DNA from: Bacteroidota bacterium
GTDB taxonomy: Bacteria > Bacteroidota > Bacteroidia > Chitinophagales > Chitinophagaceae
Assembly: GCA_013285915.1 (NCBI GenBank)
Contig: JABDGS010000008.1
Coordinates: 1 to 64,000 of the forward strand
DNA length: 64,000 nucleotides
Direction of reading: 5' to 3'
How positions within the stretch are numbered: position 1 is the stretch's first letter; each line of letters begins with the position of its first letter. The notes beneath the pieces were generated by a model. That model was given only the letters and a program-made list of their open reading frames with translations. It had not been told where the DNA came from and did no database searches. This document shows positions 15,744 through 47,699 of the stretch, piece by piece. The translations under genes were made by a program, and so were the position numbers.

Positions 15744-16673
15744 ATGATAAGACTTTTAAGTATATTTTTATTGGCCTTTTTATTTTCATCTTCTTTTAGC
15801 CAAACAATGGAAACGCAAAAAATTCCAATAATGAATAAGCGGTATTTTACAGAAGAAGATTTTAATAAGAAGTATGGAAAGGAAATGGTTTCTGCAATCA
15901 CCGTTTATCAAGACATGACTAAAAGCGGTTTTGAAGAAAATGCGCTGGCAACTTTTGACTTTGATTTCACTTCTGACACAAAAGAAAAACTTGACTCATT
16001 GGCAAAGTTCTTAACAGACAACTATGGCTTCAAACTTAAAAGCCCCGAAAAAGAAAACGACCTTTGGATTGTAGAAGGCGATGCAATAGAACTGCCTTAT
16101 ACTGAGGACAACTTAATGTTTTGGGCTCTTGACCTTTACTGCAAAGGCTACGAATTTGATTGCAGGCTGAATGGTTATGGGGCTTTGACAGATCCTAAAA
16201 ATTTGACCTGCCTAAATTTAGAAAATCAAACCGAAGACAGTTTTCATAAAAAAGGAATTGACGCACTAAACAAAAGAGATTTTGGTGCTGCAATTATTTA
16301 TTTTACAACAGCATTAAAATTAGACCCCCAAAACAAAACAACATTATTGGCAAGAGGATATTGCAAGGATGAAATTCATACCTGGAAGGCAGCCAGGAAA
16401 GACTATGACAAAGCATTGGAGATTGACCCAAATTACGTTGACGCTTTATTAATCAGGGCGACAAACAAAGACGATGCAGGAGAACATAAGGAAGCACTAA
16501 AAGACTATGACAAAGTAATTCAACTCGAACCTGAAAATGATTTGGCTTACTTTAATAGAGGCAACACAAAATTTAGTTTAGGTGACAAAAAAGGTGCTTG
16601 TGAAGACTGGACAAAGGCAAAAGCATTGGGTTCGCCTTATGCACAAGATAGATTGGCCGCAGAATGCAAGTAA
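15744..16673 (+). CDS. RraB-like domain fused to TPR repeats, exported
   Basis: About 309 residues from ATG 15744, which opens a signal peptide (MIRLLSIFLLAFLFSSSFS); the Met at 15705 would precede it with a hydrophilic lead. Residues about 40-165 resemble the RraB/RNase E-inhibitor fold (TFDFDFTSDTKEKLDSLAKFL, DLWIVEGDAIELPYT, DLYCKGYEFDCRLNGYGAL). Three to four TPRs follow (AAIIYFTTALKLDPQNKTTLL; KDYDKALEIDPNYVDAL; KDYDKVIQLEPENDLAYFNRGNTKFSLGD). An RNase-regulator fold carried into the periplasm is odd, so the domain has probably been reused. The gene looks AT-richer than its neighbours. Confidence 0.7.
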   Translation: MIRLLSIFLLAFLFSSSFSQTMETQKIPIMNKRYFTEEDFNKKYGKEMVSAITVYQDMTKSGFEENALATFDFDFTSDTKEKLDSLAKFLTDNYGFKLKSPEKENDLWIVEGDAIELPYTEDNLMFWALDLYCKGYEFDCRLNGYGALTDPKNLTCLNLENQTEDSFHKKGIDALNKRDFGAAIIYFTTALKLDPQNKTTLLARGYCKDEIHTWKAARKDYDKALEIDPNYVDALLIRATNKDDAGEHKEALKDYDKVIQLEPENDLAYFNRGNTKFSLGDKKGACEDWTKAKALGSPYAQDRLAAECK

Positions 16674-16794
16674 AGACAGTATCCCGGTTCTTAGTTAGGT
16701 GTAGTTAAAGCTTTGGGCGCAGTATAACTTTAGCTCAGCTACTATTTTCAAATTCCAGTCAAAGCCCGAGAAATCAGGCTGGCTCTTATTTATA

Positions 16795-16825
16795 ATCCAA
16801 AGAGCGTTGCACTAACTCTTTGGAT
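16795..16825. terminator. hairpin after the RraB-TPR gene
   Basis: ATCCAAAGAG (16795-16804) pairs perfectly with CTCTTTGGAT (16816-16825), loop 11 nt; a run of six T follows about 10 bp later. It could end transcription of the gene finishing at 16673. The rest of 16674-17032 shows no gene; a 65-codon minus-strand frame covering this hairpin is judged spurious. Confidence 0.4.
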
Positions 16826-17032
16826 AGCACCACGATTTTTTGTACTGAACACTACGAACAGCCCGGAGACTAATTCTAAGAAAGCAACCGTAAAGTATAG
16901 CTCGGATTGCGTTGTTTTTGGTTGTTCTACAGTAAGGATAATTCTGTTGTGGTACCACATTAGTAGTTCATGATAAAGTTTTACCAATCCAATTGAATTC
17001 TGATAAGATTAGTTTTGGGCGAGGATTTCCTC

Positions 17033-17923
17033 TCAAAAGCTAACCTCAAGCTTATATCCTTTGCCACGGATAACAACGATATTGATATTAGGATCAAGTT
17101 CCAGTTTTCTTCTGAGTTTTGATATGAACATATCAAGACTGCGGCCTACTATAACTCCTTTATCTTCCCATATCTCTTTTTGCAGCCTGCTTCTCTCTAT
17201 GGTCTCGTTAGGTGAAGATGCGAAGATGTGCAACACACGGGTTTCAGTTTCGGTGAGATCAATCGTTTTTCCATTTATTATGAGCTTACGGTTTTTTTCA
17301 TCAAACAACATTGAGCCCAAAGTGATTACATCGGTAACCTCGCCACCAGGTAAACTCCGGCGCGGCCTGGCAGACCTGAAAAATATAAAACCCATAAATG
17401 CTAAAAAGGGCAAACCGCCTAACAAAACCACGGTCTTTACTGTATTTAGGCTTGTGGGTTTAAATTTTATGTTGATCATGTAAGGTGCCCTGGGTTGCAC
17501 CCTTCCCCTGCAGGCTACAATATCATCTTTTTTGTTTTTGGATATAGCATATCCATAGGCTACACCAGGTTTGCCACTGTTAAGTACTGTTACCACATAA
17601 TCAGTTGCCATGGGGTCTTTGCCCAGCAAACGCCGGGTAGTATTCACCAGCGAGTCTGGTTGAAAAGTAAGCTCATTCTCAAAACTTACCTGGTATTCAT
17701 TTTCGGCCATCTTTTTTACCGGAAGCACCCTTGATTTATTGTCGCCCGACTGTGTGAGCAGTTCGTCGCCTATCTTCCGGAGCAAAACTTCCCTCCTGGC
17801 GATAGCAAAACCGTCACTGCCGGTGGTACTGAAGGCGACGCAGATTACAGAGATAAACACGAGTAGTATTAATCCCAATAGATATTTGCGTTTCCCGTAA
17901 AGTAGGTTTTGGCTATAAAACAT
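17033..17923 (-). CDS. membrane-anchored winged-helix regulator
   Basis: A 296-residue one-component regulator. Transmembrane helix 1 is at about 14-31 (LLGLILLVFISVICVAF), followed by a periplasmic domain at 32-162 of unknown fold, and transmembrane helix 2 at 163-183 (KTVVLLGGLPFLAFMGFIFF). The cytoplasmic C-terminus at 200-296 is an OmpR/PhoB-type winged helix (KTIDLTETETRVLHIFASSPNETIERSRLQKEIW, SLDMFISKLRRKLELDP, VVIRGKGYKLEV). There is no receiver domain. Compared with ToxR/CadC the order is reversed, DNA-binding domain last. It is divergent from two small exported proteins starting at 18027, its likely targets. Confidence 0.85.
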   Translation of the reverse strand: MFYSQNLLYGKRKYLLGLILLVFISVICVAFSTTGSDGFAIARREVLLRKIGDELLTQSGDNKSRVLPVKKMAENEYQVSFENELTFQPDSLVNTTRRLLGKDPMATDYVVTVLNSGKPGVAYGYAISKNKKDDIVACRGRVQPRAPYMINIKFKPTSLNTVKTVVLLGGLPFLAFMGFIFFRSARPRRSLPGGEVTDVITLGSMLFDEKNRKLIINGKTIDLTETETRVLHIFASSPNETIERSRLQKEIWEDKGVIVGRSLDMFISKLRRKLELDPNINIVVIRGKGYKLEVSF

Positions 17924-38879: not shown

Positions 38880-40880
38880 TTATTTCCTCAACACTGCCTT
38901 CAAATTTTTAGGAACTACCGCAAGTTTTTCGCCGGTAAATAGATCTGTTTGCGGGTTAACCGATAGATAGTCGCTAAATATTGCCGGCAATTGTTGTGCA
39001 ATGGCAAGTATGTTGCCCTCCATTGACCCTGTTCTGTCAGTATCCGGTTGCGAATTCATATAAAAGAGTACATCAAAACCGTTATCAAACATATAGGCAT
39101 ACGTTTCAAGCCCGCATAAACCGCCATTATGCTGCAGTCTGCCAGCTGTTCTGTACCAGTCTTTGGCAAAGCAATCTGTGCATCCTGTACTGGGTGTTGT
39201 AATTGAATCAAGCCAGTTGGGTTTTATAGGTGCAACCCTTTTTTTCACCCGGTCAACAGCAGTTAAAAATTTCATGTGGTCAACAATATCTATTACCCAG
39301 GCGCCCTCGGCTTCTGTCGCATTTATACTCAGGTTATCCGGATCACAGGTCCTGTACGGGTTTGGGTAATAGGTTACTTCATTAACTTTATTATGAATAT
39401 CTATAATTGACATTTTTGCCACATCTATGCCCAGCGGCGCCATAATATCTTTTATATAATCAGGGTATTCGCTGCGTCCGCTTTTCAATTCAATTATTTT
39501 GCCAAGCACTGCATAATTAAAATTTGCATACATGGGCATTTGCCCTGGGTTATATAGCAACACAACCTTAGATATCACACTCGATATATATTTTGTTTTT
39601 GCAGTGCTGTAGTCAAGGTTGTTATAAGTCTCTGGCCCTGGCACACCTAGTGAAACAACGCTGTCGTTAAAACCGCTTGTATGCTCAAGCAGGTTATCAA
39701 TGGTTATATTATTTAGCCTAACATCTTTTTTACTTAACGTGTTTAAAAACGGGTAATCACGAAAAGGATGATCAGAAAGCCTGATGATACCATCATTAAC
39801 TAAATGAATAATGCCATAAGCGGTTATTTGTTTGCTGAGGCTCCCAATTCTAAAGCGGTTATCTACCCTGAGTTTTTCGCCTGTAGCAGTATTAGATACC
39901 CCATAGCTTTTTGCAAAAATAAGCCTGTCGTCATAGGCTACAGCCATAGTAAAACCAGGCATGTGCATGGTAGGGTATTTACCCATAAGACCGTTTATAT
40001 CATTGTCAATTTTATTTATGGCAGCAGTATTTTGTGGAACGGAGGCCCATACACCTGAATACTTGGCTTCGCCACCAGCCTCATACCCGCAAATGTCAAT
40101 TTCATTATAGTTCTGGTAATAGTATTCGTCAGAAACATGTTGAAAATTGTCGCTGGTTTCGTTATACCAAAAAGCATAAGGTGTTGCCGCGCGTTTTTCA
40201 TATATGCCGCAGAATTTTACAGTTCCGTTAACGTTGTATGGATATAATTGAACAGGCATATAGCCCTGCGCAGACAATTGTTTATTTCTTGCTTCAAAAT
40301 CAGTGGTATTTAATGTATGAAAGGAAGCCCATGGCGTACTTAGGTCGTCTTTCAAAAATAACGCGGCAATACATTCCTGCCCGTTTGCCATATAACCGCA
40401 TACTTTTACGGGTTTGTAACCCTGCTGTTTATAGGTATTAAAAATAGCCTGGTAACTGCTAACGGGTATAAGGTATCTAACATACCAGCCTGTGGCGGGT
40501 GTATTTTTAACCCACAGGCCGGTGTAATAATCGGCGCCATTACAATTAAAGGCAGAAATATCTGCAAGCCTGTAACCTTGTGCCGGCAGGGTTTTAAAGT
40601 CATTCTCAAACTGTGCACGGTTTAAGCCATGGTGCGCTATAAAAGCCTTATGCTGGATATTTGCCTCAAACAACACTGAATATTTAATACTGTTGTTTAC
40701 GCAATACCCATTTAAGCGTTTTGGGTAAAAGCCGCTTGCCATAAAAGTATTAAACTGGCTTTGGTATTGCGCAGCATCAAGGCCGTACCGTGTTGCCCAT
40801 GCCTGTGCAAAATTTTTGTTTACAAAAACGGTTAACAGTATAACTGTTAATAAAAGATGGGTTGGTTTATGAAGTTTCAT
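38880..40880 (-). CDS. beta-lactamase-fold serine hydrolase with five N-terminal tandem repeats
   Basis: About 666 residues from the Met at 40880 (MKLHKPTHLLLTVILLTVFVNKNFAQ signal; the in-frame Met at 40910 is too far out). Five repeats of about 45-50 residues follow, each 'W.(t/r)..gl....Y...F......GY.p......n....Y..l(f/w)', the BTRD1/polyglycine-hydrolase type. The C-terminal 350 residues are a class-C beta-lactamase fold: SLSK about residue 345 (nucleophile and Lys), YANFNYAVLGKIIE (Tyr motif) and QHNGGLCGLET (H-x-G-G triad). It is probably an exported peptidase or esterase rather than an antibiotic-resistance enzyme; the repeat plus hydrolase architecture is shared with fungal polyglycine hydrolases. 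Confidence 0.85.
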   Translation of the reverse strand: MKLHKPTHLLLTVILLTVFVNKNFAQAWATRYGLDAAQYQSQFNTFMASGFYPKRLNGYCVNNSIKYSVLFEANIQHKAFIAHHGLNRAQFENDFKTLPAQGYRLADISAFNCNGADYYTGLWVKNTPATGWYVRYLIPVSSYQAIFNTYKQQGYKPVKVCGYMANGQECIAALFLKDDLSTPWASFHTLNTTDFEARNKQLSAQGYMPVQLYPYNVNGTVKFCGIYEKRAATPYAFWYNETSDNFQHVSDEYYYQNYNEIDICGYEAGGEAKYSGVWASVPQNTAAINKIDNDINGLMGKYPTMHMPGFTMAVAYDDRLIFAKSYGVSNTATGEKLRVDNRFRIGSLSKQITAYGIIHLVNDGIIRLSDHPFRDYPFLNTLSKKDVRLNNITIDNLLEHTSGFNDSVVSLGVPGPETYNNLDYSTAKTKYISSVISKVVLLYNPGQMPMYANFNYAVLGKIIELKSGRSEYPDYIKDIMAPLGIDVAKMSIIDIHNKVNEVTYYPNPYRTCDPDNLSINATEAEGAWVIDIVDHMKFLTAVDRVKKRVAPIKPNWLDSITTPSTGCTDCFAKDWYRTAGRLQHNGGLCGLETYAYMFDNGFDVLFYMNSQPDTDRTGSMEGNILAIAQQLPAIFSDYLSVNPQTDLFTGEKLAVVPKNLKAVLRK

Positions 40881-41032
40881 AATTAATGGTTTTGAGTTTA
40901 TTAAATGCACTGTAAAGGTTGCTAAAGTGTTTGCCTTTTTAAATACACGTTTAGAGTGATTTTGCTATACACCAAAATAATTACCACATACACTAAAATG
41001 GGTATGGCATGCAGCTTGCATCACTAAAGGGA

Positions 41033-41472: not shown

Positions 41473-42567
41473 TCACTTTCTTGCATTTTTAGTAATTGCG
41501 CGGTACCTTGCAAATCTTATTGCCTGGTAACTTTTTACAAAAAATCCGGTATCAGGGAACCGATACTTTATATTAATCCGCAGATTTTTAAACAGCGTTG
41601 CATACAATTTCATTTTTGGTAATTTTACCCCTGAAGTAAAAGTGAGTATATCAACTTTAGCATTAACATTGCAGGGGATGGGCGCATAAACACCGTGTTG
41701 CAATAAAATATAACAGCCATAATCAAACAGGTGTTCTTTCTTTTCCAGCACTGCCAGCTTACGGGCCTTATCCCAAAAGTTTTTATTTTCTTTGCTATTA
41801 AGTAAAGCAATATCAACAATCCAGTTTAAATTATCCATTTGCCGGTTTACCACGGCATGTATAATTATCATAAAAACTTCATATTCAATTGACGGCTTCA
41901 GCGCACCGGGCAGAAGACTGTAACTTTCAAGATTTTGCATCAATTTCTCGTTAAACTGTTTGGAGCATAGTGATCCAAATTTCCAATGCAGGTCAAGCCG
42001 CGTTCCAGTAAGGGAATGAGTAAAATCAAATGAATGAGAAAAAGCAGTAATTAAACCGAAGTGTTTAAAAAGCAAAGGCTCTTTTGCCTTATCTGCTTCA
42101 TAACCAATAGTCTTTAAAATTTCGAGTGCTTTTTTTATTTCGGCTGGCCGGATCAGAACATCAAAATCCGCCATGGATCTCAATTCCGGCAGTACGTAAA
42201 ATGACATTATAGAAGCCCCTTTAATAACTATGGGTTGTATTCCGTGCTTTAGCAAAGTTGCGTTCACAACTTTTAACTGGTTAAAAGTATGTTGGGTTTT
42301 AAGCCACCAATACTTATATATAACTTTTAAACGCTTATCATGCAAAGTGGCAATGCCCCATTGTTTGTTTTTATGCATAAAAAAAGGCACCAACCGCAAA
42401 CACCTGTAATCCATTTCATTCATCACTACAGTTGCTTCCCATTCCCTCACAGCTGCGCTATGCCCGCTTGCTGATTTAGCGATGCACGCTTTTATCATAA
42501 GCAACTGCGTTTTGCTTAGGCTATCGGTTGTATTAAAACCATTTAATTTCATCGGCAATATTTTCAA
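41473..42567 (-). CDS. nucleotidyltransferase family protein (NTP_transf_5-like)
   Basis: A 364-residue cytoplasmic protein of the PF14907-type nucleotidyltransferases. The active-site segment is VIKGASIMSFYVLPELRSMADFDVLIRP: KGAS at 116-119 replaces the usual GSxA and DFD at 134-136 supplies metal-binding Asp residues. A helical C-terminal domain follows (YEVFMIIIHAVVNRQMDNLNWIVDIALL). Such proteins occur as accessory genes in lasso-peptide clusters and other PqqD/HprK-containing systems, where they may transfer a nucleotide to a peptide or sugar. This is the last gene of the minus-strand operon; its start overlaps the ABC gene by 35 bp (Met at 42552 is an alternative). Confidence 0.8.
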   Translation of the reverse strand: MKILPMKLNGFNTTDSLSKTQLLMIKACIAKSASGHSAAVREWEATVVMNEMDYRCLRLVPFFMHKNKQWGIATLHDKRLKVIYKYWWLKTQHTFNQLKVVNATLLKHGIQPIVIKGASIMSFYVLPELRSMADFDVLIRPAEIKKALEILKTIGYEADKAKEPLLFKHFGLITAFSHSFDFTHSLTGTRLDLHWKFGSLCSKQFNEKLMQNLESYSLLPGALKPSIEYEVFMIIIHAVVNRQMDNLNWIVDIALLNSKENKNFWDKARKLAVLEKKEHLFDYGCYILLQHGVYAPIPCNVNAKVDILTFTSGVKLPKMKLYATLFKNLRINIKYRFPDTGFFVKSYQAIRFARYRAITKNARK

Positions 42568-44158
42568 AGCCCTCCTGGTGACTGATAATTATTATGATCG
42601 CGTTATTTTTTGCGTTAACAACTTCTTTTTTTATTTCGCTTATAGCATACTCATCCAAATGGTTAAGTGGTTCGTCTAAAATAATAAGGTCTGATGAACG
42701 AAGCCATTCACGGATAAGCGCAATACGCCTGGCTTCACCGCCAGACAGGCCTTCCCCCTTTTCACCTATCCTTCTCAGCTCAGGCGGCCCACCTGGTAAT
42801 AACGCAGATAGCCAGTTGCCTGTCAATCCGGCCCATGCTTCAGCTGGTGAAGGGTGGCCAAATAAAACGTTATCTTTTATTGTGCCGGTAAACATGGGGG
42901 CATCCTGGTGCAAAAACGCAAACCGGCTCCTAAGTGCTTTCAACTCTTCCCAGACTGTTTCTTTGCCATTAATGCATAGTTTGCCATGTTGTGGCTGCAG
43001 CAGGCCAAGCAGTATATGCGCAGTGGTGGATTTGCCACTTCCATTAGCACCATGCCACAGGTATATTTTGCCTTTCTCCAGCCGCACGCAAATATTATTT
43101 ATGGCCGCGTTGCCACCGTATGAAAATGAAACATTATTTATTGAAATCGTATCAACCTTTGGAATATCATTTAATGGTAACCCCGCAGCATCGTCTTCCG
43201 ATGGCAGCTCAAAAAAAGCAGCTATTGTTTTTGCAGCTTCCTGTCCTTCCATAAAACTCACTATTGCCGCAGGCACATTCGCCATATTGTTTTGTATAAC
43301 GCTCACAATAAGCAAAACAAGCAGCAGGCTGGTAAAGTTTATGTAACCAACCTGTACCCAGTAAATGCCGGTAATAAAAATAACAACCCTTACAAGGTTA
43401 ATACACACCTGGTTTATCGCCCGCCAGCGGGATTGGCTAATTACCATTGCTTTATTAGTGGCCAGGAACACCTGCGTATTTTCATTGTTACGTGCTGCAG
43501 ATCGCTGGTAGCCGCGGCCCATTTTAAGCAGGTCAAACTGGTCAACAGTAGCGGCAACCCAAAAATGTTGCTCACGCCACGCATTATGAAATTTTTTAAG
43601 GTAAGGCCTTACCCGGGTGGTTGAATAAAAATGCAATCCTGCAGTTAATAATAAGCCTGCAGAGCAAACAATAAACATTGGTACGTTTATAAGCAATATG
43701 GTTAATGCCAGTACAAGTACAAGAACAGTATTTACAATTACCATCTCTAGTAAAGCGGCCATACCCTGCCTTAGGCGCCATGCTTCTATCATCATCATAT
43801 CAAAAAAATAAACCCTGTTTTTGTTGTGAAAAACCAGCCATTCAATACTGTTCATTTTTTTCCAAATCCGCTCTCCTAATTTTAGCGAGAACTCCTGCAT
43901 AATTGATGCATTCACTTTTGACTGCATATGCGCGGCTATACCGCCAATGGTAAACATACCTATAACACCAATACTAAGCCATGTTATATATGCTGCGTTA
44001 TTATTATGATTTTTTTGCAGAAAATGATACAGTATATAGGGCCACACAGCAGAAAACAATATTCTTACGCAGCCATAAAGCAGCGATAAAAAAAGTTGCC
44101 GGCGCGGCAAGGACACTAAGAATCCAGTCCAGTTTGTATCTTTTAGTTTTGTTTCCAA
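42533..44158 (-). CDS. ABC-type exporter (fused membrane and ATPase domains)
   Basis: A 541-residue half-transporter. Membrane helices lie within about 20-300 (YGCVRILFSAVWPYILYHFL; IVNTVLVLVLALTILLINV; VCINLVRVVIFITGIYWVQV). The ATPase domain is complete: Walker A GANGSGKST (370-378), signature LSGGE (471-475), Walker B LIILDE (491-496) and H-loop His527. There is no C39 peptidase domain at the N-terminus, so it does not itself remove a leader. It would work as a homodimer exporting a lipid, peptide or glycan-linked product. It lies between a glycosyltransferase (2 bp away) and the nucleotidyltransferase, with which it overlaps. Confidence 0.9.
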   Translation of the reverse strand: METKLKDTNWTGFLVSLPRRQLFLSLLYGCVRILFSAVWPYILYHFLQKNHNNNAAYITWLSIGVIGMFTIGGIAAHMQSKVNASIMQEFSLKLGERIWKKMNSIEWLVFHNKNRVYFFDMMMIEAWRLRQGMAALLEMVIVNTVLVLVLALTILLINVPMFIVCSAGLLLTAGLHFYSTTRVRPYLKKFHNAWREQHFWVAATVDQFDLLKMGRGYQRSAARNNENTQVFLATNKAMVISQSRWRAINQVCINLVRVVIFITGIYWVQVGYINFTSLLLVLLIVSVIQNNMANVPAAIVSFMEGQEAAKTIAAFFELPSEDDAAGLPLNDIPKVDTISINNVSFSYGGNAAINNICVRLEKGKIYLWHGANGSGKSTTAHILLGLLQPQHGKLCINGKETVWEELKALRSRFAFLHQDAPMFTGTIKDNVLFGHPSPAEAWAGLTGNWLSALLPGGPPELRRIGEKGEGLSGGEARRIALIREWLRSSDLIILDEPLNHLDEYAISEIKKEVVNAKNNAIIIIISHQEGFENIADEIKWF

Positions 44159-44159
44159 T

Positions 44160-44852
44160 TTAGCTTAAACTATCCAATCCGCGTTTTTTATCAATATGCG
44201 ATTTTAATATTTTAAGATACGCATTTTTATTTACACCCCGGGTTGTATTAGCATTATGCACGCGCCTGTATGCCAGCACTTCCTCAACCATTACCATGTT
44301 TTTATTATCACGAACAAGCCGGCTAAACCATTCAATAAAATCCCCCATGCTTATTTTTTCATCAAACCCACCATATTTAACAAAGTTTAAGCGGTGTGTA
44401 AGCATTGTTGTTTTAAAATAGCCTTTTATGGGTTTTAAACGTGCTGCGTATCCATGGCTATGGTCACCTGGTGATATTGTATCAAATTCGCTGATGTACG
44501 TAAAACACATATCAGCATCATCGCGTTCCATCTGCAGCATTTGCTTTTTCAGCTTATCGTTATGCCACAAATCATCAGCATCAAGAAGGGCTATGTAGTT
44601 TGCTGTTGATGCTGCTACTCCTGTATTTAACGCGGTAGCTACGCCCGTATGCGGCAGCGGTATAATTTGAATATTTGCATAAGTTACTTCCAGCTGATGT
44701 AACACAGCCAGGGTGCCGTCGGTACTGCCGTCATCAACAACAATTATCTTAATATTTTGCCAGCTTTGCCGCACTGCCGATTCAATGGCTTCCGCAACAA
44801 ATGCCTCGCAATTATATACGGCAATAATAACGTCAATTAATGGTTCATTCAT
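44160..44852 (-). CDS. family 2 glycosyltransferase
   Basis: A 230-residue GT-A glycosyltransferase with one GT2 domain: IDVIIAVYNCEAFVAEAIESAVRQSWQNIKIIVVDDGSTDGT at the N-terminus and LLDADDLWHNDKLKKQM as the DxD metal site (about residue 92). No membrane segment, so it acts in the cytoplasm from a nucleotide sugar. The start overlaps the end of the preceding two-domain glycosyltransferase by 4 bp (ATGA type), and the ABC exporter begins 2 bp after its stop, giving strong translational coupling. Acceptor unknown. Confidence 0.9.
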   Translation of the reverse strand: MNEPLIDVIIAVYNCEAFVAEAIESAVRQSWQNIKIIVVDDGSTDGTLAVLHQLEVTYANIQIIPLPHTGVATALNTGVAASTANYIALLDADDLWHNDKLKKQMLQMERDDADMCFTYISEFDTISPGDHSHGYAARLKPIKGYFKTTMLTHRLNFVKYGGFDEKISMGDFIEWFSRLVRDNKNMVMVEEVLAYRRVHNANTTRGVNKNAYLKILKSHIDKKRGLDSLS

Positions 44853-46267
44853 CGGCCGTTCATTTGTTTATGAAGCAGGTTTAATATCTCGTTTCGCAAT
44901 AGTTTCTTATTAAAGCTTGCATTGGTACCATGTAACCATTTTAGCAATAACAATACATCTGCATTGTCTTCTTTAAACCCGGCATTTCTCAGCCGTCTTA
45001 TAAGGTCCATATCACTGCTTACTGTAAGGTCGGCCTTAAATCCGCCAATACTTAACAGGGCATGCCTTCGTATAAGCAGTGCGCTTGGTATAAATGACCG
45101 ATGTTCCTCCTTTAGTTTTTCATCAAAATAAACCGGAAAATCAACATTGTCATAGCACACCAAACGCTGGTTACACGTAACAAAAGCACAATAAGGATCA
45201 CTGCGTAAAATATTCCATTGGGTTGTTAGCTTATCCTGCAACCACTCATCATCCTGGTCAAGAAAAGCGATCAATTCACCGGACGAAACTTTAATACCCT
45301 TATTACGCGCGGCAGCTACACCCGCGTTTTTTTGCCTGGTTATTTTTGCAACGGGGTAATGTTTTTCAATCCATTCAGCGCCGCCGTCACTTGATCCATC
45401 GTCTATTATACAAAGTTCCCAGTTGGTATATGTTTGTGCCAGCACACCCTGTATTGTTTTTTCAATAAATGCTTTGCCATTGTACAATGGCACGATAATA
45501 CTTATAAGTGGCTCATTTCTCAATACCCTAAAGTCGGCAACCTGTGGTATTTGCTTTGTTTGATTGCCATAGTTACGCCGCTGAAGCGATGCATGCAATA
45601 CTTTTAAAAGCTGAAGTTCCTTAAGGCTTTTATTGACCGACATATTGTTACCGTGTACATGATATAATAAAGTCGTGAACTCAGTAATAACAATATGGAT
45701 ATTATTTTCACGCAATCTCAGCCACCAGTCCAGGTCCTCGCTAAATTTCAGCGACTCATTGAAATAGAAGCCCCGGTCAAAAATCGTTTTACGCACCAGC
45801 AACGAACCGAGGTGCACATGGGTTAACCTGTGATTGGTATCTTCGTAACGTAATATGGGCGATGCCTGGCCCTCATCTATTACATATTGTATCTTTCCGC
45901 CGGCAACTTCCGCCACGTCATCTTCAAAAAAAGGCAATAATTGCATTAATTTATCCTCTGGCCATTCATCATCAGCATCTAAAAACCCTATAATATCACC
46001 CTTCGCCTGTTTTATTCCAAAGTTTCTTGCTGCCGCCGGCCCCATTTGCTTTTCCAGTTGCAATAACTCTATTGCCCGGTAATTGGTTGCAAGCTGTTGC
46101 AGGCCGTTAGTAAATTCCGCTGCAGACCCATCGTTTACAATAATTATCTGCAGGTTATATTCTATATTCTCCGGCTGCTGCTGGTTAATAATGCTTTTAA
46201 CAGCGCGTTCTATTTCCGGGCCGTTGTTAAACGTTGGAATAATTATGCTTACACCGCCCTTATACAT
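44849..46267 (-). CDS. tandem two-domain GT2 glycosyltransferase
   Basis: A 472-residue protein with two complete GT-A domains. Domain 1 (about 5-230) has VSIIIPTFNNGPEIERAVKSI, IIIVNDGS and GFLDADDEW with DxDD at 97-100. Domain 2 (about 252-470) has LISIIVPLYNGKAFIEKTIQ, CIIDDGSSDGG and AFLDQDDEW with DxDD at 337-340. Two active-looking domains in one chain suggest alternate sugar additions, as in polysaccharide synthases such as chondroitin/hyaluronan-type enzymes. The start overlaps the end of the HprK-like gene by 8 bp. Confidence 0.9.
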   Translation of the reverse strand: MYKGGVSIIIPTFNNGPEIERAVKSIINQQQPENIEYNLQIIIVNDGSAAEFTNGLQQLATNYRAIELLQLEKQMGPAAARNFGIKQAKGDIIGFLDADDEWPEDKLMQLLPFFEDDVAEVAGGKIQYVIDEGQASPILRYEDTNHRLTHVHLGSLLVRKTIFDRGFYFNESLKFSEDLDWWLRLRENNIHIVITEFTTLLYHVHGNNMSVNKSLKELQLLKVLHASLQRRNYGNQTKQIPQVADFRVLRNEPLISIIVPLYNGKAFIEKTIQGVLAQTYTNWELCIIDDGSSDGGAEWIEKHYPVAKITRQKNAGVAAARNKGIKVSSGELIAFLDQDDEWLQDKLTTQWNILRSDPYCAFVTCNQRLVCYDNVDFPVYFDEKLKEEHRSFIPSALLIRRHALLSIGGFKADLTVSSDMDLIRRLRNAGFKEDNADVLLLLKWLHGTNASFNKKLLRNEILNLLHKQMNGR

Positions 46268-47282
46268 TGTTTATAAAATTGTGAAATGATGATTGAAAAT
46301 TTTGAACATCATAGCCAAGCATCCATGTATACGCTGGTATGCGGGATGAAAGATAACTGAGTTTTTTGTATGAGATATCCCTGTTATGGGGTAAATGGTG
46401 TAATGTAGTTGGCGCCATGCAAAGTAATGCCTTTGAGGGCGGCGCATTATGAAATGACGAATATTGCCGCTTGCCTATTGCTGGTAATACAATTGCTTTT
46501 AGTGTAATGCAAGGCAACCACTGTTGTGGAAATAATTCTTTAATATCAAAAATTGCTTTTTCATCATTATACGTCTGGCTGTTTTTTATAAAAGGCATCC
46601 AGTCATAAAACTTGCCCCGCAGGTTATCCGCTTCAATTTTTGCGGTTTGGTAAAGTGCGTGTACCACCGGCGTTTCATCAAACTCAATCCAAACATAGTC
46701 ATCCCCTAGATATTTGTAACCCGCTTTTAATAAATTAAGGCATGAAGTTGATTTGCCCGAACCGCTTGGCCCGGTTATTAAAACACCCGTTGTTTCATTA
46801 GCAATTGCTCCTGCGTGCACCAGCTGCGCGGGCAGGTTATAGCTCCAAAAATGAAATATTATCCTGAATGAAAATGTAACTTCCCACCACGGCACATCAC
46901 TTACTGTATCAACCCAATAAATAGCCGTTTGCTTTGATTTTGAGTAGAGAAAAACCTGCTTTTGCCAGGGTTGAAAAAACACCCGTACATCTCCATTTTC
47001 ATTAGAGGCATTATAACCCTGGGCATTAAATTCCGCCCAGGGTGGGGCATTAAGCTTGCCAGCTAAATTTTTACCCTCGGCGTACCAAATAGTGAGGCCG
47101 GGTTGTTTATTGTTCTTATCAACAACCAGGTGCGATAAAGCCGGAAGGAAAAGATTTCGCAAGGCTTCAGACGGTGTATTAAGATGTACTAACCGGCCTG
47201 CCAGTAATAACACATCGGTTTTAAAAGATGGAAGGGAGGTAAATAGCTGCAGGGCATCGTCAAAATATTTGTCAGCTTCCAT
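46260..47282 (-). CDS. HprK-related kinase
   Basis: A 340-residue protein whose C-terminal half is an HPr kinase-like P-loop domain. A conserved LVHAGAI (His156) precedes Walker A GPSGSGKST at 171-179, then SCLNLLKAGYKYLGDDYVWIE with DD at 194-195, the acidic motif of HprK. The N-terminal half (about 1-150) is not the HprK N-domain but a divergent beta-rich module. HprK relatives linked to PqqD-like proteins occur in lasso-peptide clusters, where some phosphorylate the peptide's last Ser, and in the uncharacterised HPr-rel-A systems. Here it follows the PqqD-like gene by 9 bp. The likely substrate is a peptide or protein, possibly the PqqD tail, but that is inference. Confidence 0.82.
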   Translation of the reverse strand: MEADKYFDDALQLFTSLPSFKTDVLLLAGRLVHLNTPSEALRNLFLPALSHLVVDKNNKQPGLTIWYAEGKNLAGKLNAPPWAEFNAQGYNASNENGDVRVFFQPWQKQVFLYSKSKQTAIYWVDTVSDVPWWEVTFSFRIIFHFWSYNLPAQLVHAGAIANETTGVLITGPSGSGKSTSCLNLLKAGYKYLGDDYVWIEFDETPVVHALYQTAKIEADNLRGKFYDWMPFIKNSQTYNDEKAIFDIKELFPQQWLPCITLKAIVLPAIGKRQYSSFHNAPPSKALLCMAPTTLHHLPHNRDISYKKLSYLSSRIPAYTWMLGYDVQNFQSSFHNFINNV

Positions 47283-47291
47283 GTCCTTTTT

Positions 47292-47699
47292 TTAGGGAGT
47301 TTGCTTAACGGCCCAGCCTTCTTCATCAACGTCGTGTATCGGGTCCAGCATTAAAAGGTCCTGCATATCAGCGTAGCGGTTAAAACGTGATGGAACATAC
47401 ACACCCGCTACTGGCAATTCCCGGTTTGCAGGGGTAACAGGCGCGTCAGATTGTTTTACAATTTCCTCGGCCAATAACTGTTGCCATATGTTGCCCAGTT
47501 CAGTTTCTATGCCAGCAGCATTTGCGGGGTTTGCCTGCATTACCTGTGTTATATAATCAACCGGCGCATCAAACGGCAGTGCCTGCAAAAGCGAAACTGC
47601 AGAGCCCTGTACATTATAATAAAGCCCTGTATCAAGATTGGCAATAACATACTCGTTATCAAATATATCTGCAGCTAGCCTCGGGTTTAAATAATACAT
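47292..47699 (-). CDS. PqqD-like peptide-binding protein with acidic C-terminal tail
   Basis: A 135-residue protein from Met at 47699; the Met at 47726 adds a doubtful nine residues. Residues about 1-85 follow the PqqD/RRE pattern: a beta hairpin (YYLNPRLAADIFDNEYVIANLDTGLYYNVQGSA) and helices (VSLLQALP...LGNIWQQLLAEEIVKQ). Such domains hold a substrate peptide for modifying enzymes. The tail after a Pro/Ala linker (about 90-135) contains MQDLLMLDPIHDVDEEGW, rich in Asp/Glu with an aromatic end. It heads the operon with the HprK-like kinase, glycosyltransferases and exporter. No separate precursor peptide is visible in the 86 bp upstream, so the tail is a candidate substrate. Confidence 0.75.
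   Translation of the reverse strand: MYYLNPRLAADIFDNEYVIANLDTGLYYNVQGSAVSLLQALPFDAPVDYITQVMQANPANAAGIETELGNIWQQLLAEEIVKQSDAPVTPANRELPVAGVYVPSRFNRYADMQDLLMLDPIHDVDEEGWAVKQTP

Follow-up and report, generated by a model that had tools for sequence, protein, structure and literature searches.

The operon and its first protein

The window, the 64,000-nucleotide stretch of DNA analyzed here, holds on its minus strand a tight operon of six genes that overlap their neighbors or lie a few bases apart. The first gene (47292..47699) starts with ATG and encodes a 135-residue protein in which a predicted RRE of the PqqD/lasso-B1 type carries a fused C-terminal tail. It is followed by an HprK-like kinase (46260..47282), a double-domain family 2 glycosyltransferase (GT2; 44849..46267, with two stretches matching PF00535), a second GT2 (44160..44852, also PF00535), an ABC exporter whose membrane and ATPase parts share a single chain (42533..44158), and a PF14907 nucleotidyltransferase (NTP_transf_5; 41473..42567), the only one found in the genome. 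The open reading frame (ORF) list and domain searches identified all six genes; among them is no SpI-type signal peptidase and no leader peptidase gene to release a product. Searches of the 135-residue protein against Pfam and NCBIfam returned no match in either. Elsewhere in the window, a gene at 38880-40910 on the minus strand encodes a protein in which five BTRD1 repeats, of the polyglycine hydrolase-like kind, precede a serine hydrolase domain of the beta-lactamase type.

The window kinase retains intact His-Lys-Asp-Asp residues (H156, K177, D194, and D195), a motif described for HprK-like kinases (PMC9266682) and kept in 21/21 of those aligned, and judged by these residues it looks active. 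Several homologues of the kinase carry GT2 domains in the same chain, a hint that the two activities may work together.

The AF2 model of the tailed protein has a pLDDT mostly above 90 up to residue ~83 and contains three strands followed by three helices (E8-13, E16-21, E26-31, H33-39, H46-56, and H58-77), the bbb-aaa winged helix expected of an RRE. With this model as the query, Foldseek matched TbiB1 (5v1v/5v1u; prob 1.00, TM 0.73), a lasso RRE whose structure was solved together with its leader; a profile of five relatives also matched TbiB1, weakly, among PDB sequences. Because of the Foldseek match, we assign residues 1-83 (47451..47699) to a predicted RRE of the PqqD/lasso-B1 type, in agreement with the sequence-only reading, which had placed an RRE-like part at residues ~1-85.

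The remainder of the chain comprises a variable linker of low pairwise identity (residues 84-100; 47400..47450), a leader-like segment recognized by a motif and by a predicted strand and helix (residues 101-117, YVPSRFNRYADMQDLLM; 47349..47399), a core-like segment delimited by conservation and the AF2 model (residues 118-129, LDPIHDVDEEGW; 47313..47348), and a C-terminus that is short and variable in the homologue alignment (residues 130-135; 47295..47312). The sequence-only reading had singled out 47292-47430, which spans residues 90-135 and the stop codon, and the tail motif that it quoted, MQDLLMLDPIHDVDEEGW, is present in the sequence. Our analysis shifts the start of the meaningful element to Y101 (47399), and the supposed linker turns out to contain part of a leader-like motif.

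Conservation of the tail and gene content of tailed loci

Close relatives with the same gene order as the window operon are present in Niabella, Pedobacter, and a Dyadobacter metagenome-assembled genome, and distant ones are spread over several classes of the phylum, with one on a plasmid of the cyanobacterium Crinalium. The endings of the form LLxLDPIHDVDExGW that the sequence-only reading had attributed to related proteins are real and occur across this whole range; their recurrence is far above chance. Phyla other than Bacteroidota were sampled via plasmids and one contig scan; the plasmid search gave a full-length match in Crinalium alone, and no relatives turned up in viral contigs. The Crinalium plasmid, pCRI9333.04, is mobilizable and carries the tailed-RRE cluster together with an FkbM methyltransferase (L014:5896-14354); this location is consistent with horizontal spread. 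Two tailed-RRE systems coexist in each of three genomes (loci L110 and L111 in G1032, L112 and L113 in G960, and L115 and L120 in G1084), and the second copies L111, L113, and L115 are shorter and divergent, with tails like LIKLDPIHEVxxxGWPNKK and no Pro motif.

Among 21 sequences, mean pairwise identity was 0.63 in the tail (residues 106-130), 0.27 in the RRE, and 0.11 in the linker (residues 83-105). This is the outcome that the sequence-only reading had named as favoring a role for the tail, and classic PqqD/B1 proteins lack such a tail. Comparison of the five closest sequences gave a tail identity of 93% for residues and 44% for third codon positions; since third codon positions vary while the tail residues hold, selection acts on the protein. 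Conservation as a DNA-level effect is thereby ruled out, as is an overlap with the kinase gene, since the two genes do not overlap. That the tail is more conserved than the RRE itself, through selection at the protein level, argues for a precursor peptide built into the RRE protein.

A tail-only profile run against 396 genomes matched the tailed RREs (E values of 1e-14 to 1e-19), and its sole other match was a weak, chance-level hit in an unrelated 981-codon frame; no unfused tail was found in these genomes. Locus L108, which had appeared to carry a tail without an RRE, was rejected because it is cut by a contig end. When ORFs of 25-230 codons were compared across the 22 tailed loci, the tailed RRE was the only small protein present in every locus and no other small ORF was conserved as a separate precursor peptide, so the earlier remark that no separate precursor is visible holds across these loci. 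Both results, a tail never found unfused and no other conserved small ORF, favor a precursor within the RRE chain.

The same searches returned many tail-less RREs of about 90-100 residues. Some of these have long ORFs, which we considered as possible carriers of other tails and rejected as upstream extensions. In a tree built on the RRE columns alone, 21 tailed sequences split from 72 tail-less ones with support of 97/94 and in 98% of bootstraps, although the interior of this tree is unsure owing to few columns and long branches. That the tailed RREs fall on one side of a single branch favors an RRE-precursor fusion.

The two groups also differ in their neighbors. Gene counts were made within the compared stretches, some of which are cut by contig ends, so that a single absence may represent missing data. 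Among the tailed loci (n = 22), HprK was present in 21, GT2 in 21, the nucleotidyltransferase in 19, and the ABC exporter in 10, and neither a B2 leader peptidase nor an AsnB-type cyclase, the two genes expected of a lasso cluster, was present in any. Among the tail-less loci (n = 21), the corresponding counts were 17 for HprK, 2 for GT2, 10 for the nucleotidyltransferase, 9 for the exporter, 15 for B2, and 14 for AsnB. The B2 and AsnB contrast (0/22 tailed versus 15/21 and 14/21 tail-less) is clear despite the contig ends. The tail therefore accompanies the loss of lasso chemistry and the gain of glycosyltransferases. It is present in all tailed orthologues with the kinase and glycosyltransferases, and the refuting case that had been foreseen, a tail variable or absent where the kinase and glycosyltransferases are kept, was not encountered.

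Two further features of the tailed loci were observed. Single chains joining the HprK-like kinase to one or two GT2 domains are encoded at L015:11413-13221, L116:7029-8813, and L114:11905-14376. In one family of tailed systems, the GT2 genes adjoin homologous proteins of ~420-480 residues, mostly paired (L015:14799-16241 and 16247-17632; also L016, L017, and L118); two of these were tested and had no Pfam domain above the cutoff.

A leader-like and a core-like segment

The motif [Y/W]xxPx[L/V/I/F/A] mediates the binding of lasso and LPP leaders to discrete RREs (PMC13381572). The corresponding motif in the homologue tails is [YWF]xxPx[LVIFAM]: at 18, 15, and 13 residues before DPIH, an aromatic residue is found in 16/22 sequences, Pro in 13/22, and a hydrophobic residue in 21/22, with all three in 12/22. 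Shuffling the linkers placed the complete motif at this fixed position in a mean of 0.06 and a maximum of 2 sequences (20,000 trials); the position and the widened letters (F and M) were picked after inspection, but the margin over the shuffles is large. The window copy is degenerate (YVPSRF, with the Pro off by one place), and the motif is missing from the three most divergent homologues, both of which weigh against a leader origin.

Tail-less loci hold real lasso-like precursors, such as YATPVLKHYGSVQKLTFG in L020. Five likely lasso precursors with YxxPxL...T leaders (L020:7166-7303, L128:12637-12991, L137:6329-7075, L138:18030-18191, and L103:1968-2114) adjoin tail-less RREs of the same phylum, many of them with HprK and PF14907 genes. 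When the tails were aligned as a profile with the lasso precursors of tail-less loci, the match spanned exactly tail columns 1-16 (P = 0.0024), opposite the part of the lasso leaders that runs from Tyr to the penultimate Thr. Owing to its shortness, the segment yields an hhalign probability of only 12%, which counts against the relationship. At offsets unused in selecting the precursors, the similarity still exceeded that of shuffled sequences (P = 0.0008), and register 0 alone stood out. The penultimate Thr of lasso leaders is replaced by Leu, Ile, or Val in all tails and is retained in none; we count this in favor of the fusion. Residues 101-117 resemble a lasso-type leader in these comparisons.

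In the crystal structure of LppB, residues -12 to -7 of the LppA leader form the RRE-bound strand (PMC13381572). Aligning Y101 with Y-16 of LppA predicts a bound strand at residues 105-110, in agreement with the AF2 model, in which a confident strand (105-109) and a short helix (112-116) precede a region with pLDDT below 50 from residue 123. The model of a divergent homologue that lacks the Pro motif is similar, with a strand at 103-108, a helix at 111-117, and low confidence from residue 121. The strand and short helix before the core presumably dock on the RRE like a leader, and we infer from the models that this docking would occur in cis, in the leader groove of the same chain. The objection that the tail might prove to be a helix packed on the RRE is not upheld, as the invariant part is predicted to be disordered.

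These models also bear on two other explanations. The tail could simply extend the RRE fold at its C-terminus as a structural element, unrelated to precursor peptides, as the confident strand and helix would allow; yet the leader motif occurs at a fixed register far above chance, the segment is similar to lasso leaders, and the most conserved residues fall in the disordered part, and we consider this the least probable of the explanations weighed here. Alternatively, the leader-like strand could act as a self-inhibitory lid that blocks the RRE until the true precursor displaces it. The motif and the predicted strand would suit such a lid, which is nevertheless very improbable: it leaves unexplained why conservation peaks beyond the strand, and no precursor was found that could displace it.

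The leader-like segment is followed by LDPIHxVDxxGW, which is invariant across homologues: D119, P120, H122, G128, and W129 do not vary, and I121 is replaced by Val in one truncated homologue. Since the leader alignment ends at the position of the penultimate Thr, LDPIHDVDEEGW starts where a lasso core would start. No position of the core has a conserved Ser, Thr, or Tyr in the homologue alignment. Of the related enzymes, LppK phosphorylates only Ser and left S3T and S3Y variants unphosphorylated (PMC13381572), and in pseudomycoidin the kinase acts first, followed by hexose addition by a nucleotidyltransferase homologue, on Ser (PMC9266682). Phosphorylation of the core by the intact HprK is doubtful because the core lacks a conserved Ser, Thr, or Tyr, and the earlier proposal of a tail that receives phosphate or hexose is not supported in that form. 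Given Ser-only LppK, either the acceptor is unusual or the core is a docking motif and the substrate lies elsewhere.

It is conceivable that the tail derives from a precursor while its core now gathers HprK, GT2, and the nucleotidyltransferase around the RRE as an adaptor, the true substrate, either a glycan or a peptide from another locus, being supplied in trans. A short, invariant, disordered, acidic-hydrophobic core without a hydroxyl acceptor would suit this role, as would the lack of a peptidase gene, the intact HprK catalytic residues beside a tail without Ser, and the HprK-GT2 fusions of several homologues, which point to enzyme assembly. However, an RRE filled in cis by a leader segment could not easily take up another leader, the loci share no separate precursor, and tail-less RREs beside HprK and the nucleotidyltransferase work without such a motif; we regard the adaptor as possible but less likely than a built-in precursor. 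On balance, we infer that the core would be a substrate rather than purely a docking motif.

A proposed fused precursor and its relation to known systems

We propose that a lasso-type discrete RRE (B1) fused with a lasso-derived precursor peptide (A). Residues ~101-117 would dock as a beta strand in the protein's own RRE leader groove, and the former core, residues 118-129, would be held out beside the HprK kinase, the GT2 enzymes, and the PF14907 nucleotidyltransferase, which would act on the core or be assembled by it. The lasso cyclase, the leader peptidase, and the penultimate leader Thr would have been lost in the tailed lineage, so that the peptide would be neither cut nor cyclized by lasso chemistry. 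This reading rests on tail conservation, the single clade, gene content (with B2 and the AsnB-type cyclase missing from all tailed loci), leader similarity at the best register and a motif count of 12/22 against 0.06 expected, and a modeled core disorder that follows a strand matching in position the LppB-bound strand of the LppA leader. Against it stand the core without a conserved hydroxyl residue beside relatives of Ser-only kinases, an operon without a peptidase gene for product release, a core invariant across phyla where most RiPP cores are not, and an exporter in only 10/22 loci. We give about an even chance to a natural fusion of this kind that presents its core to the cluster enzymes. 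An invariant peptide that is neither cut nor cyclized might further serve as a permanent carrier, its core holding a phospho-sugar or glycan built by the kinase, nucleotidyltransferase, and GT2s and attached through its Asp, His, or Trp or the backbone; this extension seems unlikely.

The suggestion of a recognition domain fused to its own substrate therefore survives as an apparent precursor with leader-plus-core anatomy, and the sequence comparisons support a fused precursor/RRE architecture. RREs guide the search for precursor peptides, and an RRE locus in which none is visible is usually passed over; should the precursor lie inside the RRE protein, many loci of this kind would become readable. 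A fused precursor tail is not described in the accessible text of the RRE surveys, and the literature searched (subscription papers and most preprints being outside the search) held no report of an RRE-precursor fusion. What is new here is the tail anatomy, a lasso-leader-like stretch and an invariant core on the RRE chain. According to a 2025 survey, 21% of PF05402 proteins exceed the length of a discrete RRE and carry no second Pfam domain (PMC12710340), a group that could include tailed RREs. Here, a system for peptide natural products would be changing into one whose peptide is fixed and shared across phyla.

Among the closest known systems is LPP (LppA/B/K/S/D/N; PMC13381572, 2026), which likewise has a discrete RRE, an HprK-like kinase, an NTP transferase, an MsbA-like exporter, and a YxxP leader motif and no cyclase. 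The tailed system has this kinase, NTP transferase, and exporter (the last in the window and in 10/22 loci overall) and adds GT2s, which LPP lacks. In LPP, the precursors are separate and vary at their C-termini, an SpI-type peptidase acts on the leader, and a Ser is phosphorylated, whereas in the 22 tailed loci no separate precursor with a variable C-terminus was found, precursor and RRE would form one chain, the window operon encodes no peptidase, and the core is invariant and has no conserved Ser position as an acceptor. The lasso peptides paeninodin and pseudomycoidin share with the tailed system the RRE B1, the His-Lys-Asp-Asp HprK-like kinase, the nucleotidyltransferase, the ABC exporter, and the YxxPxL leader, whose motif is complete in 12/22 tailed homologues and degenerate in the window; they differ in having a lasso cyclase, a B2 peptidase, the penultimate Thr, a C-terminal Ser acceptor, and a precursor that is not fused to B1.

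In borosins, the core peptide is attached to the methyltransferase itself, so that a recognition or enzyme part and the substrate form one polypeptide, as proposed here; the tailed system has no methyltransferase, and the fusion partner is the noncatalytic RRE. Mycofactocin and PQQ are RiPPs with a conserved core and a PqqD-like domain, and mycofactocin also involves a GT2. Their precursors are separate and, unlike them, the window operon has no radical SAM gene, but the tailed system shares with both the PqqD-like domain and a core that is constant across taxa, and with mycofactocin the GT2.
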